From positions 1 through 36,973 of IMG/VR virus record IMGVR_UViG_3300045741_000183: DNA of 36,973 bases; one strand, written 5' to 3'. This DNA is from a virus. The notes under the pieces were generated by a model. It ran no database searches. It was not told the origin of the DNA and worked only from the letters and a program-made list of their open reading frames with translations. The translations under genes were made by a program, and so were the position numbers. Below, one piece after another: positions 1-6,318 of the stretch; within the stretch, counting starts at the first letter, position 1; the number at the start of each line of letters is the position of its first letter.

Positions 1-1398
1 GCGCTGCATGTGGCGCACGCTCGGCAGGCCGGTGTCGTACGCATCGATGACATCGCGGGCAACGTCGAGGTCGACGCCGAGTTGCACGGCAGTCTTCGCC
101 GCGCCGGCCCCGTAGATCTTGCTGAAGCCGACGATCTTCGCGGTGTGCCGGTCGAGCACGATGCCGGCGCGCTCGGACACCGTGGCGCGGGCGAACTCGT
201 GCATGTCGAGGCTCGGGTTATCGCGGTACGCCTGCGCTATCGGGCCGTCTTCGAAGTGCGCGAACAGGCGCCACTCCTGCTGGTTGTAGTCGACGCCGAA
301 CAGGCACCAGCCACGCGGCGCCTCGATGTAGCTACGCACGACCGGCAGCGTCCAGTCGCGCCGCCACAGCGTGTGCAGCTTCAACAGCAGCTTCGCCGGG
401 TCTTTGGTGATGTTCTGGAAATTCGGCTCCGACGACAGCCGGCCCGTGCGGGCGCCGGACTCGTCGCGACGCGCGCTGGTGCCGCGCACCTGATTCCAGT
501 GGACATGCATGGTGCCGCCGCTGCGCGCCCACGGGCGCATGAACGTGCCGAGCGAGTAGGCCAGCGCCGAGCGGTAGAGCAGCAGCGCCTTGACCTTGGC
601 ATCGGGGATGCTCTCCTCCAGCACACCCTTCGCCGTGCTGCGCCGGCCGGTCGGGGTCGGCGGCAGCTTGATGCTGTACCGTGATTCAATCGCATCCGCG
701 AGGCTGTCGTTGCTGTCGATGTCCAGATCCTTCGCGCGCAGCCGGCGGCGGATGTCATGCTCGACATCGGAGAGGATGATCTCGTACTTCGCGAGGTCGC
801 GCTTCAGTCGCGCCTTCGCGATGGGGATGCCGGCCTGCTCCATCTCCAGCAGCATCGGCAGCAGCGCGCACTCGCGGTCGTACGCCGAGCGCATGCCGGC
901 TTTCGCTACGAGTGGATGCAGCTTGTCGAAGAGCTTGCGCGTGCGGACGACATCGCCAATCGCATACGGACGCACGAGGGCGGCCGGGGCGTCGCTGATG
1001 TGCGCGCCCCACTTGCGGTCGCGCTTCGTGACGATGCCCTGCGCGATCAGCCAGTCGCGCACGGCGTCGCGCTCGACCGGCTTCATGCCGAGGTACTTCT
1101 CCGCAAGAGGTTTAAGACCTAAATCGTCGAACGGGTCGAGCAGAAAGGCGAGGATCAGCGTGTCGTGGACGCGCGCTGGCAGCGTGAGAAGCTTCGCCGC
1201 CTGCCCGACCGCGAGGTCGAAGATGGCGTTGTGGCAGAGCATCTCCGCGACATGCGGGATGAAGACCAGCGAGCCGCTCTCGTCGTGGTGGCCCCACGAG
1301 TGGTACGTCGGACTCGGCGTATCGACCGCGACGCCGACCGGCGCAGGCGGGTAGCTCGTCGCGTCGATGGCGACGGTTTCGTAGTCAAGCGTCAGCAT
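1..1398 (-). CDS. Family A DNA polymerase (3' end cut by window edge)
   Basis: Replicative phage DNA polymerase of the Pol I family. The first 466 codons are present. A 3'-5' exonuclease domain comes first: LDYETVA with D5/E7, then HNAIFD ending at D61, then YAIGD at 145-149. The polymerase domain shows TGRLSSEPNFQNI (318-330), motif A VDYNQQEW with D370, and motif B R417...K421...YG at 429-430. Motif C lies beyond the edge. There is no 5'-3' exonuclease domain, which is usual for phage enzymes. The ATG at 1398 follows GGAGA and overlaps the upstream gene by 14 bp, so the two are probably coupled. The frame is not listed as one ORF from a stop because it runs off the window. Family assignment is secure; biological role in phage genome replication is inferred from family and neighbours. 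Confidence 0.95.
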   Translation of the reverse strand, partial: MLTLDYETVAIDATSYPPAPVGVAVDTPSPTYHSWGHHDESGSLVFIPHVAEMLCHNAIFDLAVGQAAKLLTLPARVHDTLILAFLLDPFDDLGLKPLAEKYLGMKPVERDAVRDWLIAQGIVTKRDRKWGAHISDAPAALVRPYAIGDVVRTRKLFDKLHPLVAKAGMRSAYDRECALLPMLLEMEQAGIPIAKARLKRDLAKYEIILSDVEHDIRRRLRAKDLDIDSNDSLADAIESRYSIKLPPTPTGRRSTAKGVLEESIPDAKVKALLLYRSALAYSLGTFMRPWARSGGTMHVHWNQVRGTSARRDESGARTGRLSSEPNFQNITKDPAKLLLKLHTLWRRDWTLPVVRSYIEAPRGWCLFGVDYNQQEWRLFAHFEDGPIAQAYRDNPSLDMHEFARATVSERAGIVLDRHTAKIVGFSKIYGAGAAKTAVQLGVDLDVARDVIDAYDTGLPSVRHMQR

Positions 1399-1732: not shown

Positions 1733-2467
1733 TCAGAACTTGCGCGCTCGCGCCCCCGGCTTCGGCTTGTCCTCTGCGATGGTCGCATAGGGCGTGGTCA
1801 CCAGCCGCTCGGCGGCCGGCACACGCGCAGCGATCAGGTCGAGGATCTTGTCGTTGGTGATCTGCGTCGCGCTGAACGACAGCTTGTACTGGGTCTTCGG
1901 GTCGTTCTCATTCTTGATCGAAATGCCGAAGCACCAAGTCGGCAAGTCGTGCCCGTCGAGTTCCGCCTCGACGAAGGCGCGCCACGCCATCGCGGCGGAC
2001 ACGCTGAAGCGCGCCTGCACGATGTCGGCCTCGGTGATCTTCTCCGGCTTCTTCAGCACATCGCCGTGCAGGAGCGCGATTCTCGCACCCTCTTTGCATG
2101 CCTTCCCCTTGCCGTTCGTCGCAGACCCGAACTCGTTGAGCGGGCAGTTCGCACAGTCGGCGGCGCCCTTGTTCTTCGCCTGCGGGTGCGGCTTCTCGCC
2201 GTCGAAGGAGTAGCACTCCGGCGCGGCGGCCTTGCCCTCGACGAACGCGCCCGCATAGTAGACGCGCTCGGCGCTCGCGGCCAGCACGATCACCGGCAGC
2301 GGGTTGGGCAGCTTGTCGTCCCCGAGCTTCGTCGTGCCGCCACGCCACGAGAGGAACGCGCCGCTCGATGCGCTCGGCAGCTTCAGCGTCTGCGCCCGCT
2401 GGGTGACGAGGGACTTCGTCATCTGGTCTTTCCACGTTCCCGTGGTCAGTGCTTTCGATTTACTCAC
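1733..2467 (-). CDS. Phage protein with cysteine motif, possible ssDNA-binding protein
   Basis: A 244-aa soluble protein starting at GTG (2467) after GGAGA. Its centre holds PECYSFDGEK followed by CANCPLNEFGS and GKGKACK. These four cysteines (C-X2-C with outer cysteines) look like a zinc- or metal-binding insert. The C-terminal tail is basic (KPKPGARARKF). In many phages an ssDNA-binding protein (for example the DUF2815 type) is encoded immediately before the family A polymerase, and this gene has that position. I see no sequence proof of an OB fold, so ssDNA binding is an inference from context. The cysteine motif itself is clear. The Zn-binding central region could alternatively belong to a recombination or packaging accessory protein. 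Confidence 0.75.
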   Translation of the reverse strand: MSKSKALTTGTWKDQMTKSLVTQRAQTLKLPSASSGAFLSWRGGTTKLGDDKLPNPLPVIVLAASAERVYYAGAFVEGKAAAPECYSFDGEKPHPQAKNKGAADCANCPLNEFGSATNGKGKACKEGARIALLHGDVLKKPEKITEADIVQARFSVSAAMAWRAFVEAELDGHDLPTWCFGISIKNENDPKTQYKLSFSATQITNDKILDLIAARVPAAERLVTTPYATIAEDKPKPGARARKF

Positions 2468-2567: not shown

Positions 2568-2951
2568 CTACGCGCGATTCGGCTTGCGTGCGGTGACGCT
2601 GAGATCCTCCCGCTGGCCCGGTCGCACGCCGGGGATCACCTTCTCGGCGGCCCAGTACTCGCGGGCGGCCTCGACGGTGCAGCGACGGTGCAGGAGTTCG
2701 AAGGCCTTGTGCTTCGCGACGTACGCGAAGAAGGCATCCGGGTCGTGCAGTTCCGCGAAGGTCGTGCGCTTGATCGCGATGGTGAGCTTCGGCGTGCTGA
2801 ACGCTTCCAGCTTCGCCGCGTGCAGCGCGTCGAGGATCTGCTCCTCCAGCGCATCCTCCTGCGCCTTGAGGTCGGCCAGCTTGGCCTGCGTCGCCTTGCG
2901 TTGCTTGATGAGCTTGCCGAGTTGATCGGCAGCCTGCTTCAGGTCGGTCAT
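2568..2951 (-). CDS. Hypothetical coiled-coil phage protein, 127 aa
   Basis: The first half is a charged helix (roughly residues 2-45, rich in K, Q, L, A and E heptads). The second half is globular and ends in VIPGVRPGQREDLSVTARKP, a tail style seen in many phage proteins of unknown function. I chose ATG 2951 because it follows the shared leader GAGGAGACGAAC at good spacing. An in-frame ATG at 2969 lies inside that leader and would add MTEETN. Promoter at 2992-3020 reads into it. Function unknown; expression in the early leftward arm is inferred. Confidence 0.75.
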   Translation of the reverse strand: MTDLKQAADQLGKLIKQRKATQAKLADLKAQEDALEEQILDALHAAKLEAFSTPKLTIAIKRTTFAELHDPDAFFAYVAKHKAFELLHRRCTVEAAREYWAAEKVIPGVRPGQREDLSVTARKPNRA

Positions 2952-3857: not shown

Positions 3858-3900
3858 AGTATGCTCGCAGGGTGTTGCTCTTGTCAACACCCTGCGAGCA
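3858..3900 (-). promoter_or_regulatory. Leftward promoter within a perfect 16-bp palindrome
   Basis: Minus strand TTGACA (3882-3887), an 18-bp spacer, then CATACT (3858-3863). Arms TGCTCGCAGGGTGTTG (3862-3877) and its exact complement (3885-3900) flank a 7-nt loop and cover most of the promoter. It could be an operator, a terminator-like stem for the gene ending at 3906, or both. No T-tract follows, so an operator is favoured. Confidence 0.65.
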
Positions 3901-3905
3901 GCGGA

Positions 3906-4175
3906 TCAGAAGGGGATGTCCTCGTCCTCGACGGCGATGCGGGGGAACTCGCGAACCGGCGCGGCCGGGGCGGGCATCCCCTCCTCGTCGAGGTCGTAAT
4001 CCTCGGGGTGACGCTGCGGCGGGCCGACGTAGTGGGGGTTACGCACCCAAACGTCGTAGTCGGTCAGGAGCCAAGCGTACTTCGCGTTGTGCTCGGTGCC
4101 GCCGACGTTCTCAGCGAACTCGCGCATGGCATCAGCCGGCGTGGCGAGACGGTCTTCTTCGTGGTCGTAGAACAT
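3906..4175 (-). CDS. Small acidic protein with SSB-like C-terminal tip, 89 aa
   Basis: Begins MFYDHEEDRLATPADAMREF and contains YAWLLTDYDVWVRNPHYVGPP. The last residues are VEDEDIPF, which closely resembles the D-D-D-I-P-F tip by which bacterial SSB recruits its partner proteins. No OB fold is visible and the protein is far too short for SSB, so it is not an SSB itself. A role in attracting or blocking SSB partners is inference. The ATG follows GAGGAAACGAAA, a leader variant, and the promoter at 4221-4249 lies upstream. It is the first leftward gene next to the divergent control region. Confidence 0.75.
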   Translation of the reverse strand: MFYDHEEDRLATPADAMREFAENVGGTEHNAKYAWLLTDYDVWVRNPHYVGPPQRHPEDYDLDEEGMPAPAAPVREFPRIAVEDEDIPF

Positions 4176-4220
4176 TTTCGTTTCCTCGGTCAGTGGGCGA
4201 CGGCGCCGCCCTTGAGAAGA

Positions 4221-4302: not shown

Positions 4303-4337
4303 GAAAGCCCGGAAACGCGAAGCGTAACCGGGCTTTC
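4303..4337 (-). terminator. Intrinsic terminator hairpin, leftward U-tract
   Basis: GAAAGCCCGG (4303-4312) pairs with CCGGGCTTTC (4328-4337). The 15-nt loop contains a smaller ACGC/GCGT pair. Read leftward, the stem runs into TTTTACCC; read rightward there is no T-tract. It would stop leftward antisense transcripts from the late arm before the early promoter at 4221-4249. Confidence 0.65.
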
Positions 4338-4413: not shown

Positions 4414-6318
4414 ATGCAGTTCAGCACCGTCCAGCACCGTCTGGACAAGTCCCCCATCGTCGCCAGCGATCTCTGGCACTGGCTGCACGCGAACATCCGC
4501 GTCGCCACGCTGACACGCGAGCAGTACCACGCACTCACACCGGAAGAGCGCGCCGCGCTGAAAGACGGCCCCGCATTCATCTGCAACTCCGTGCCCGCAC
4601 GCACTGCCGCGCAGTTCAAGTCCGCCGAGTTCGTCGTCGTAGATCTCGACAAGGGCAACTGGTTGCGCGAGAAAATCCTCGCCGCGATCAAGCCGCACAA
4701 GTACATCCTGTACGAGTCGCCGTCCTCCGCTCCTGACGCGCAACGCTGGCGGATAGTTCTCTTCACCAAGCCGATCCTCGACCGCGCGGTGTTCAGCGCA
4801 ACGGCGCTGTCGGCTGCGGCGATCTTCGGTGCGGATGCGGATCGCTCCGCGACGAACCCCGTGCAACTCTGGTACGCGCCGCTGCAGTTCGACAAGCCCG
4901 TGACGATCCTGCGCGGCGGACGCAAGCCCTTCCCCCACGCCGCACCCGGCGTGCGTGCGGTGAAGAGCGGCAAGTTCAGCGGGCCGCGCTGGACGGAGAC
5001 CGGCTTCGCGCAAGCGCGTGAGGCGCTGATGCGGCGTGATCCGTCCTGCTCGCGCGCCGAATGGCGCGAGCTTGCCTGTGCGCTCCACGACGGCACGCAC
5101 GGCGAGCAGGACGGTCTCGACCTCTTCATCGAGTGGTCGAGCGCCGGGGCGAACTACCTCGGGCCGGCAGACTGCATCAAGTTGTGGGACGGCATCGAGC
5201 CGGGGAGGGGCATCACGCGCGCGAGTCTCTTCAAGGCGTCCGCCGAGCCGCGCGAGACGCCGCCCACGCCCCCAGCCGAGCCACGCTCGCGCAGCATGGC
5301 TGCACTGCTGCGGGCGAGCGTGCAGAAGGTCTACTACTTCTGGCAGGACATCCTCGTACCGGGGCTGTACCTCTTCAGCGCCGGGGCGAAGTGCGGCAAG
5401 TCATGGCTGCTGCTGAACCTCGCCCGTGCGGTTGCGCGCGGTGAACCGTTTCTCGACCGGGCCACCACGCGCGTCGGCCTGCTATACATCGCGGCCGAGG
5501 ACGAGGAGACGACCCTGCAGCCGCGCATCGAGCAACTCGGGTTCTGCCCGACCGACGATGTCGACCTGCTGCTCGGCGCTTCGCTGCGCGAGGAGGCCGA
5601 GGCGAACTGCGACGAGGAGGGCAACCCGATCCTCGCACCCCATGAGTGGCTGAAGCAGTACTTGATCACGCGCCCTCACATCCGGGTGGTGTTCCTCGAC
5701 ACGGGGGCGCGCTTCGAAGCGATCATGCGGGTCAATCAGGTGAAGCGCGGCAGCGGGGATGTCACGGCCGACCACTACGACTACTCCAGCCGCTACCAGA
5801 ACCTCGCGCTGGAACTTGGCATCACCATCGTGCTGGTGATGCACACCGCGAAGGGGCACCTGACGAAGTCGCTCGACAACATCTTCGAACGGCACAACAT
5901 GGCGGACACTGTCGTCGCTGGCGCGACCGGCATCCTGCTCATGCTCTGGCCGCCGGGATACGAGCCGGGGATGAAGGACGCACGGCGCCTGCTCGCGATC
6001 CGACACCGCCACGCGCAGCGCGATGTGGCGCTGGAGATCGAGTTCACCGCGACGAGCGAGTTCAAGTGCAACGGCGAGTACCACGAGGTGCGCCAGAGCA
6101 ACCAGCAGGGCGAGATCCTCGCCACAGTGGAGGCCTTGCAGGGCAAGACCGACCGCTACGTCACCTGCGCGGAGATCGCCACGGAGATGGGCCTGCAGAA
6201 GAACACCGTGCAGAAATACGTCAACACGATGGTGCGGACGAACCGCACGGTGTGGAAGGGCCAGCGGCTGGAAACGAAGACCGGCCGCGAGGGCGGAATT
6301 CGTCTTTCAGCGTTGTAG
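4414..6318 (+). CDS. Bifunctional primase-helicase (AEP-like primase plus RepA-like ATPase)
   Basis: A 634-aa replication protein. Residues about 50-165 resemble the archaeo-eukaryotic primase fold of phages: VVVDLD at 74-79, then YESPSSAPDAQRWRIVLF at 100-117. Residues about 195-275 look like a primase C-terminal (PriCT) helical domain. Residues about 300-560 form a RecA/RepA-type ATPase: Walker A GAKCGKS (324-330), AEDEE (361-365) and Walker B VVFLDT (425-430). The end looks like a winged-helix segment. It would open and prime the phage origin for the family A polymerase. ATG 4414 follows AGGAGCAAGAAG. It is alone on the plus strand near the divergent region, apart from the other replication genes, which lie on the minus strand. 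Confidence 0.88.
   Translation: MQFSTVQHRLDKSPIVASDLWHWLHANIRVATLTREQYHALTPEERAALKDGPAFICNSVPARTAAQFKSAEFVVVDLDKGNWLREKILAAIKPHKYILYESPSSAPDAQRWRIVLFTKPILDRAVFSATALSAAAIFGADADRSATNPVQLWYAPLQFDKPVTILRGGRKPFPHAAPGVRAVKSGKFSGPRWTETGFAQAREALMRRDPSCSRAEWRELACALHDGTHGEQDGLDLFIEWSSAGANYLGPADCIKLWDGIEPGRGITRASLFKASAEPRETPPTPPAEPRSRSMAALLRASVQKVYYFWQDILVPGLYLFSAGAKCGKSWLLLNLARAVARGEPFLDRATTRVGLLYIAAEDEETTLQPRIEQLGFCPTDDVDLLLGASLREEAEANCDEEGNPILAPHEWLKQYLITRPHIRVVFLDTGARFEAIMRVNQVKRGSGDVTADHYDYSSRYQNLALELGITIVLVMHTAKGHLTKSLDNIFERHNMADTVVAGATGILLMLWPPGYEPGMKDARRLLAIRHRHAQRDVALEIEFTATSEFKCNGEYHEVRQSNQQGEILATVEALQGKTDRYVTCAEIATEMGLQKNTVQKYVNTMVRTNRTVWKGQRLETKTGREGGIRLSAL

Follow-up and report, generated by a model that had tools for sequence, protein, structure and literature searches.

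The locus raises the question of why a small viral protein should end in the C-terminal tip of a single-stranded DNA-binding protein (SSB) without being one. The C-terminus of bacterial SSB consists of a disordered linker followed by a DDDIPF tip. The window, i.e. the whole stretch of DNA analysed, spans the whole of a virus contig record of 36,973 bases, on which a terminase-like gene and one for a P22-like portal are also present, and the product of its 89-aa ORF terminates in RIAVEDEDIPF directly before the stop codon. The ORF and its parts are as follows:

3906-4175, minus strand: 89-aa ORF, ATG start, stop codon at 3906-3908, matching phrog_36991
3996..4148, minus strand: folded core, residues 10-60, with the motif D.W..NP.Y.G....HPE (invariant columns; pLDDT)
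3927..3995, minus strand: linker, residues 61-83, disordered and non-conserved (pLDDT ~53; pair scores near shuffled)
3909..3926, minus strand: SSB-type C-terminal tip DEDIPF, residues 84-89 (translation, shuffle test, codon comparison)

The sole profile match of the protein was to phrog_36991, a family with no assigned function (E 3e-11), and it spans residues 11-64 with the tip outside. All 71 members of alignment A2 (71 rows, excluding L042, L025, L018 and L052) matched the same profile. Pfam gave no match for the 89-aa protein or for any of these 71 members, PADLOC anti-phage defence models matched 0/71 family members, and a search of NCBIfam with the family produced a single match that was weak and implausible. 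In an AlphaFold2 model built on a 63-row alignment, residues 11-60 reached pLDDT values of ~90-95 and the tail ~53; the modelled core comprised one helix and two short strands, and D41, W43, N46, G51 and P57 were invariant core columns in the family alignment. An OB fold was not present in this model, which, together with the lack of a Pfam match, bore out the original prediction that the tip sits on a protein lacking that fold. Comparison of the core with the PDB by Foldseek returned no significant match (best E 2.2), none of 38 chains in a structural alignment reached Z ≥2, and a search for solved relatives by sequence gave an unrelated peptide as its best hit (E 0.29). Only two small proteins in a viral structure library matched the core at E <0.001, and their identities of 46 % and 50 % suggest that they are probably family members.

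Family members were collected by core motifs, and the tip was not used as a search criterion. A tblastn search of annotated phages identified nine records (seven Brevundimonas phages, Xanthomonas phage XacN1 and Erythrobacter phage L02), core-derived patterns identified 75 loci in viral contigs, and one locus with the core pattern was found among bacterial and archaeal genomes representing 84,980 species, one genome per species. The family set comprised 85 proteins, including eight of the nine phage records, of which 75 were distinct; the counts omit L014 and L002, which lie on the contigs of L001 and L016, respectively. The core pattern is missing from L042 and L045, and their removal left 73 distinct members with a recognisable core. 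L045, thus excluded, ends in DPPF, which would count as a loose tip; L062 ends in YDFPF and was scored tipless; and L025 (scored tipless) and L042 are, by eye, possibly frame-broken. Plasmid members stand outside the 73.

Two architectures were apparent among these 73 sequences. Thirty-five end no more than 14 residues past the ~50-aa core, and 38 have a longer tail, which finishes in an SSB-type tip ([DE]..[IVLC]P[FY]) in 29 cases and does not in nine. When each tail was shuffled, only 0.037 tips were expected against the 29 observed in the 38 long tails, and the strict form [DE][DE][IV]PF occurred in 15/38 compared with an expectation of 0.002. As a background, six-frame ORFs of at least 60 aa from the same loci displayed the tip in just 1/1768 cases. 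Clustering of cores at 70 % identity yielded 47 clusters, with a long-tailed member in 29 and a tip in 21 of those. The reading of VEDEDIPF at the extreme C-terminus as an SSB-type tip is thus confirmed, far beyond chance, whilst the expected conservation of the last six residues across homologues held for most long tails and failed in the tailless members and the nine tipless long tails. An acidic tail ending in IPF by accident might be entertained because acidic tails are common in the family, with a mean tail charge of -7 (the 89-aa protein as a whole has a net charge of -14). The shuffling retained composition, however, and tip-bearing members share core identity as low as 25 %; together with the background ORFs, the shuffling rules out a chance resemblance, which we regard as having a negligible likelihood.

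Conservation in the tails was restricted to the last six positions. Across 21 representatives the linkers aligned with scores only slightly above those of shuffled sequences and the hexamers agreed, such that an acidic stretch followed by I/V/L-P-F at the very end, on a drifting linker, describes these 29 of 38 long tails; a few tips break the acidic rule (TDPIPF, DALIPF). The 30 tip-bearing genes encode the tip with 25 different 18-base sequences, indicating that it is the amino acids that are kept and not the DNA. Three comparisons among four Brevundimonas phages showed five or six amino-acid changes in 32 linker codons and none in the six tip codons, though synonymous tip changes were also absent, so this small set alone proves little. 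Tipless members include XacN1, Erythrobacter phage L02 and the inspected Komagataeibacter and Novacetimonas plasmid members. In a tree built from 56 core columns, in which most of the forks were unresolved, members with and without the tip were interspersed; this implied 19 changes between the two states, at least four of them forced by well-supported branches. Judged by these sequence comparisons, the tip of the phrog_36991 family is under selection.

The sequence, the conserved tip on its drifting linker, the predicted core and disorder and the absence of an OB fold describe what appears to be a small non-OB core from which a disordered linker leads to a C-terminal acidic I-P-F peptide. We propose that the 89-aa protein is an SSB-tail mimic whose core-tethered tip docks on SSB-partner enzymes, making it a bivalent adaptor or blocker, and we assign this reading a probability of roughly 0.6. 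The tip peptide would dock in the pocket where genome-maintenance proteins bind the bacterial SSB tip, the core would bind a separate target of its own, and the protein would either join that target to SSB-partner enzymes or divert them. These enzymes would most likely be the host's, and the function would be one of recruitment or competition. According to the available part of PMC7145534, the E. coli SSB tip is a docking code through which 17 or more proteins are recruited to single-stranded DNA, and isolated SSB-tip peptides bind RecO, PriA, PriC and chi regardless of linker length; according to that of PMC5928155, a phage SSB needs its last six residues in order to load the phage recombinase Sak4. 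Since tip peptides alone bind partners and a phage SSB tip loads a recombinase, a free DEDIPF terminus carried by a flexible tail should in principle be capable of entering such pockets. That the core is also found alone, in 35/73 members, suggests that it has its own job and that the tip is an add-on resembling a localisation tag. Hijacking or inhibition of host repair proteins, as first suggested for this protein, is plausible on these grounds. The accessible portion of PMC12904381 also lists phage SSBs as setting off the Nhi, Hachiman, Septu and retron Eco8 defence systems, and a decoy role against such systems is conceivable for the 89-aa protein.

The surroundings of the gene bear on how the tip might be deployed. 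The relevant features of the window are:

4173..4189, minus strand: leader with ribosome-binding site CCGAGGAAACGAAAATG, start codon included
3862..3900: perfect inverted repeat of 16 nt with a 7-nt loop, just 3' of the 89-aa ORF stop (z -7.45)
4303..4337: inverted repeat between the 89-aa gene and the divergent helicase-primase-like gene (z -5.76)
4414..6318, plus strand: divergent helicase-primase-like gene with AAA_25 and PriCT_2 domains
1733-2467, minus strand: candidate gp32-like SSB of 244 aa (structural matches; same gene run as the 89-aa ORF)
1..1395, minus strand: family A DNA polymerase truncated by the record end (PF00476, E 1.1e-23; same gene run)

A leftward gene run starts with the 89-aa ORF and extends to the family A DNA polymerase at the record end. 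The leader of the ORF contains a strong ribosome-binding site, and near-identical copies of it lie before other minus-strand genes. Following the form CCGAGGA[AG]ACGAA[AC]ATG, they precede several such genes at both record ends, with start codons near 2951, 3821, 4175, 34691, 35297 and 35627, and are perhaps a shared early-gene signal. The 89-aa gene is flanked by the two strong hairpins at 3862-3900 and 4303-4337, the first of which is a possible terminator or operator and overlaps a minus-strand site resembling a promoter; the perfect 16-nt repeat after the stop indicates that the ORF may have its own transcript or its own regulation. The 127-aa protein encoded at 2568-2951 (minus strand) matched phrog_13900, labelled 'minor head protein', yet it is located among replication genes, as it is in Xanthomonas phage Xp15, and the label may be wrong. 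A Pam3 gp34-like protein was sought in the window and gave 0 matches.

A strong leader and ribosome-binding site, a small product and a tip that alone suffices for partner binding (PMC7145534, available part) would also suit a pure competitor, made abundantly and early to fill SSB-tip pockets and shut off host repair enzymes or nucleases, with the core a mere carrier. The core, however, is conserved more widely than the tip and occurs without a tail in nearly half of the members, which argues that it is not a mere carrier. In addition, bacterial SSB is a tetramer, and a protein with one tip per chain would have to compete with it. We consider such a competitor improbable, and the bivalent adaptor or blocker is favoured over it.

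The tip had further been described as occurring without an SSB, and this holds only in part. The canonical SSB domain PF00436 gave 0 matches in the window record and was above cut-off in 3/46 family-bearing records, many of which are fragments; it was also absent from Gurke, Marchewka and XacN1, which are deposited as complete. These record checks covered 46 or 47 family-bearing records, a portion of the loci found. The window does, on the other hand, encode the 244-aa protein at 1733-2467, whose model (mean pLDDT 86.5) had its best structural matches in a phiC31 integrase-RDF fusion chain (Z 7.9), RB69 gp32 (Z 7.0) and T4 gp32 (Z 6.6). The alignment tool grades values of Z <8 as middling and Foldseek alone found nothing significant, so the protein stays a candidate, though on its predicted structure a good one, for a gp32-like SSB. 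No relatives were recovered by single-sequence search, whereas an alignment search recovered 499, of which 80 were kept. Amongst 70 distinct relatives, 58 end in [KR][FY] against 0.75 expected when the last 25 residues are shuffled, and by sequence the family is large, its conserved C-terminal tip having the opposite charge to the SSB-type tip.

These data also bear on whether the 89-aa protein binds the gp32-like protein and supplies its missing acidic tail in trans. Within the window the idea is attractive, as both genes lie in one leftward run and the gp32-like protein has a basic C-terminus (ARARKF) with no acidic tip. As a general rule it fails on co-occurrence, with the two families found together in 1/47 family-bearing records, the window alone; furthermore, none of the 80 relatives of the gp32-like protein has an acidic tip, and phage G011 carries a canonical SSB with its own tip, yet has a tipped family member too. 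We hold this arrangement to be highly unlikely.

Carriers of the family range from the 37-kb P22-like record to jumbo phages of 0.3 Mb, and 13 plasmid records from acetic acid bacteria contained relatives. Of six plasmid records inspected, two from Kozakia end in DALIPF, and three from Komagataeibacter and one from Novacetimonas are tipless. The acetic-acid-bacterial plasmids L319 and L321 to L324 encode a 226-aa protein ending in DALGF, which in Komagataeibacter directly precedes the family member and in Kozakia, where it is similar by eye, follows ~1.1 kb after it; the Kozakia plasmid also has an ssb gene, ~5 kb downstream, whose product ends in LDDEVPF. Locus comparison revealed no neighbour gene common to the whole family, with shared ORFs splitting into subgroups: a terminase-like ORF was near the family gene in 20 loci including the window, and other shared ORFs in at most 13.

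This distribution can be set against a partner encoded by the phage itself, whereby the tip would recruit a phage enzyme with an SSB-tip pocket and the protein would act as an accessory to the replisome or to recombination, without any target in the host. Such a partner would be in keeping with the gene run that the ORF shares with the candidate SSB and the DNA polymerase, and with the known loading of phage recombinase Sak4 by a phage SSB tail (PMC5928155, available part). Given that carriers vary greatly in size and gene content, share no family-wide conserved neighbour and include plasmids, we find it doubtful. For the SSB-tail mimic, occurrence in phages of very different sizes and in plasmids makes a host protein more likely as the shared partner, and a host target common to carriers so different is plausible from their sequences. 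The broader view, that an undescribed family of SSB-tail mimics in phages and conjugative plasmids rewires the host SSB interaction network with a modular core and an optional tail, has in our estimation about even odds. If true, a mobile-element protein that carries the SSB docking code and is no SSB would be a natural tool for redirecting or blocking that network, and a tip-bearing protein a ready-made probe of it. A testable function is in any case now proposed for phrog_36991, which previously had none assigned.

The same ending was also examined outside the family. In 16/47 family-bearing records, [DE][DE][IVM]PF-stop was present at 18 sites and the reversed pattern at none. Twelve sites belong to the phrog_36991 family, two to canonical SSBs and four to other proteins, namely proteins of 214, 292 and 86 aa matching PHROGs without assigned function and a 400-aa AAA ATPase. 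A wider survey of phage ORFs ending in DDDIPF, confined to TAA stops, found at least 80 loci, of which 78 ORFs of at least 30 aa were scanned. Among the 78 listed, 22 have a PF00436 match and 22 fall to phrog_44, annotated as single strand DNA binding protein, and further single-strand-binding PHROGs and helicases were present, indicating that in phages such an end accompanies DNA metabolism. Phage proteins that by their matches are not SSBs and nevertheless carry an SSB-type tip were L129, L149, L165, L112, L121, L127, L147, L175, L143 and L094; they include two SF2 helicases, a DnaB-like helicase fragment, a 63-aa protein, an AAA ATPase and a family of 73-75 aa (phrog_1811 for L112). The tipped phrog_36991 family may thus exemplify something more general among non-SSB phage proteins such as these SF2 helicases and the 73-75-aa family. 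Searches of the open-licence literature listed no paper that describes an SSB tip on a phage protein other than an SSB.

Known systems resemble the 89-aa protein in part. As in the C-terminus of bacterial SSB, acidic residues and I-P-F stand at the very end of a disordered linker that varies in length and sequence; in contrast to bacterial SSB, the 89-aa protein lacks both an OB fold and similarity to PF00436, and its tail is attached to a different small core that also occurs tailless. The phage proteins gp5.9 and Abc2 are comparable as small proteins directed against host DNA-break repair, but they aim at RecBCD, and the available part of PMC9836394 does not mention an SSB-type tip for them. 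The SSB of HK620, which ends in NDYPPF and loads Sak4 (PMC5928155, available part), is alike in having SSB-like last six residues; the recruitment role is HK620's, and its protein is a true SSB, whereas the 89-aa protein is not.
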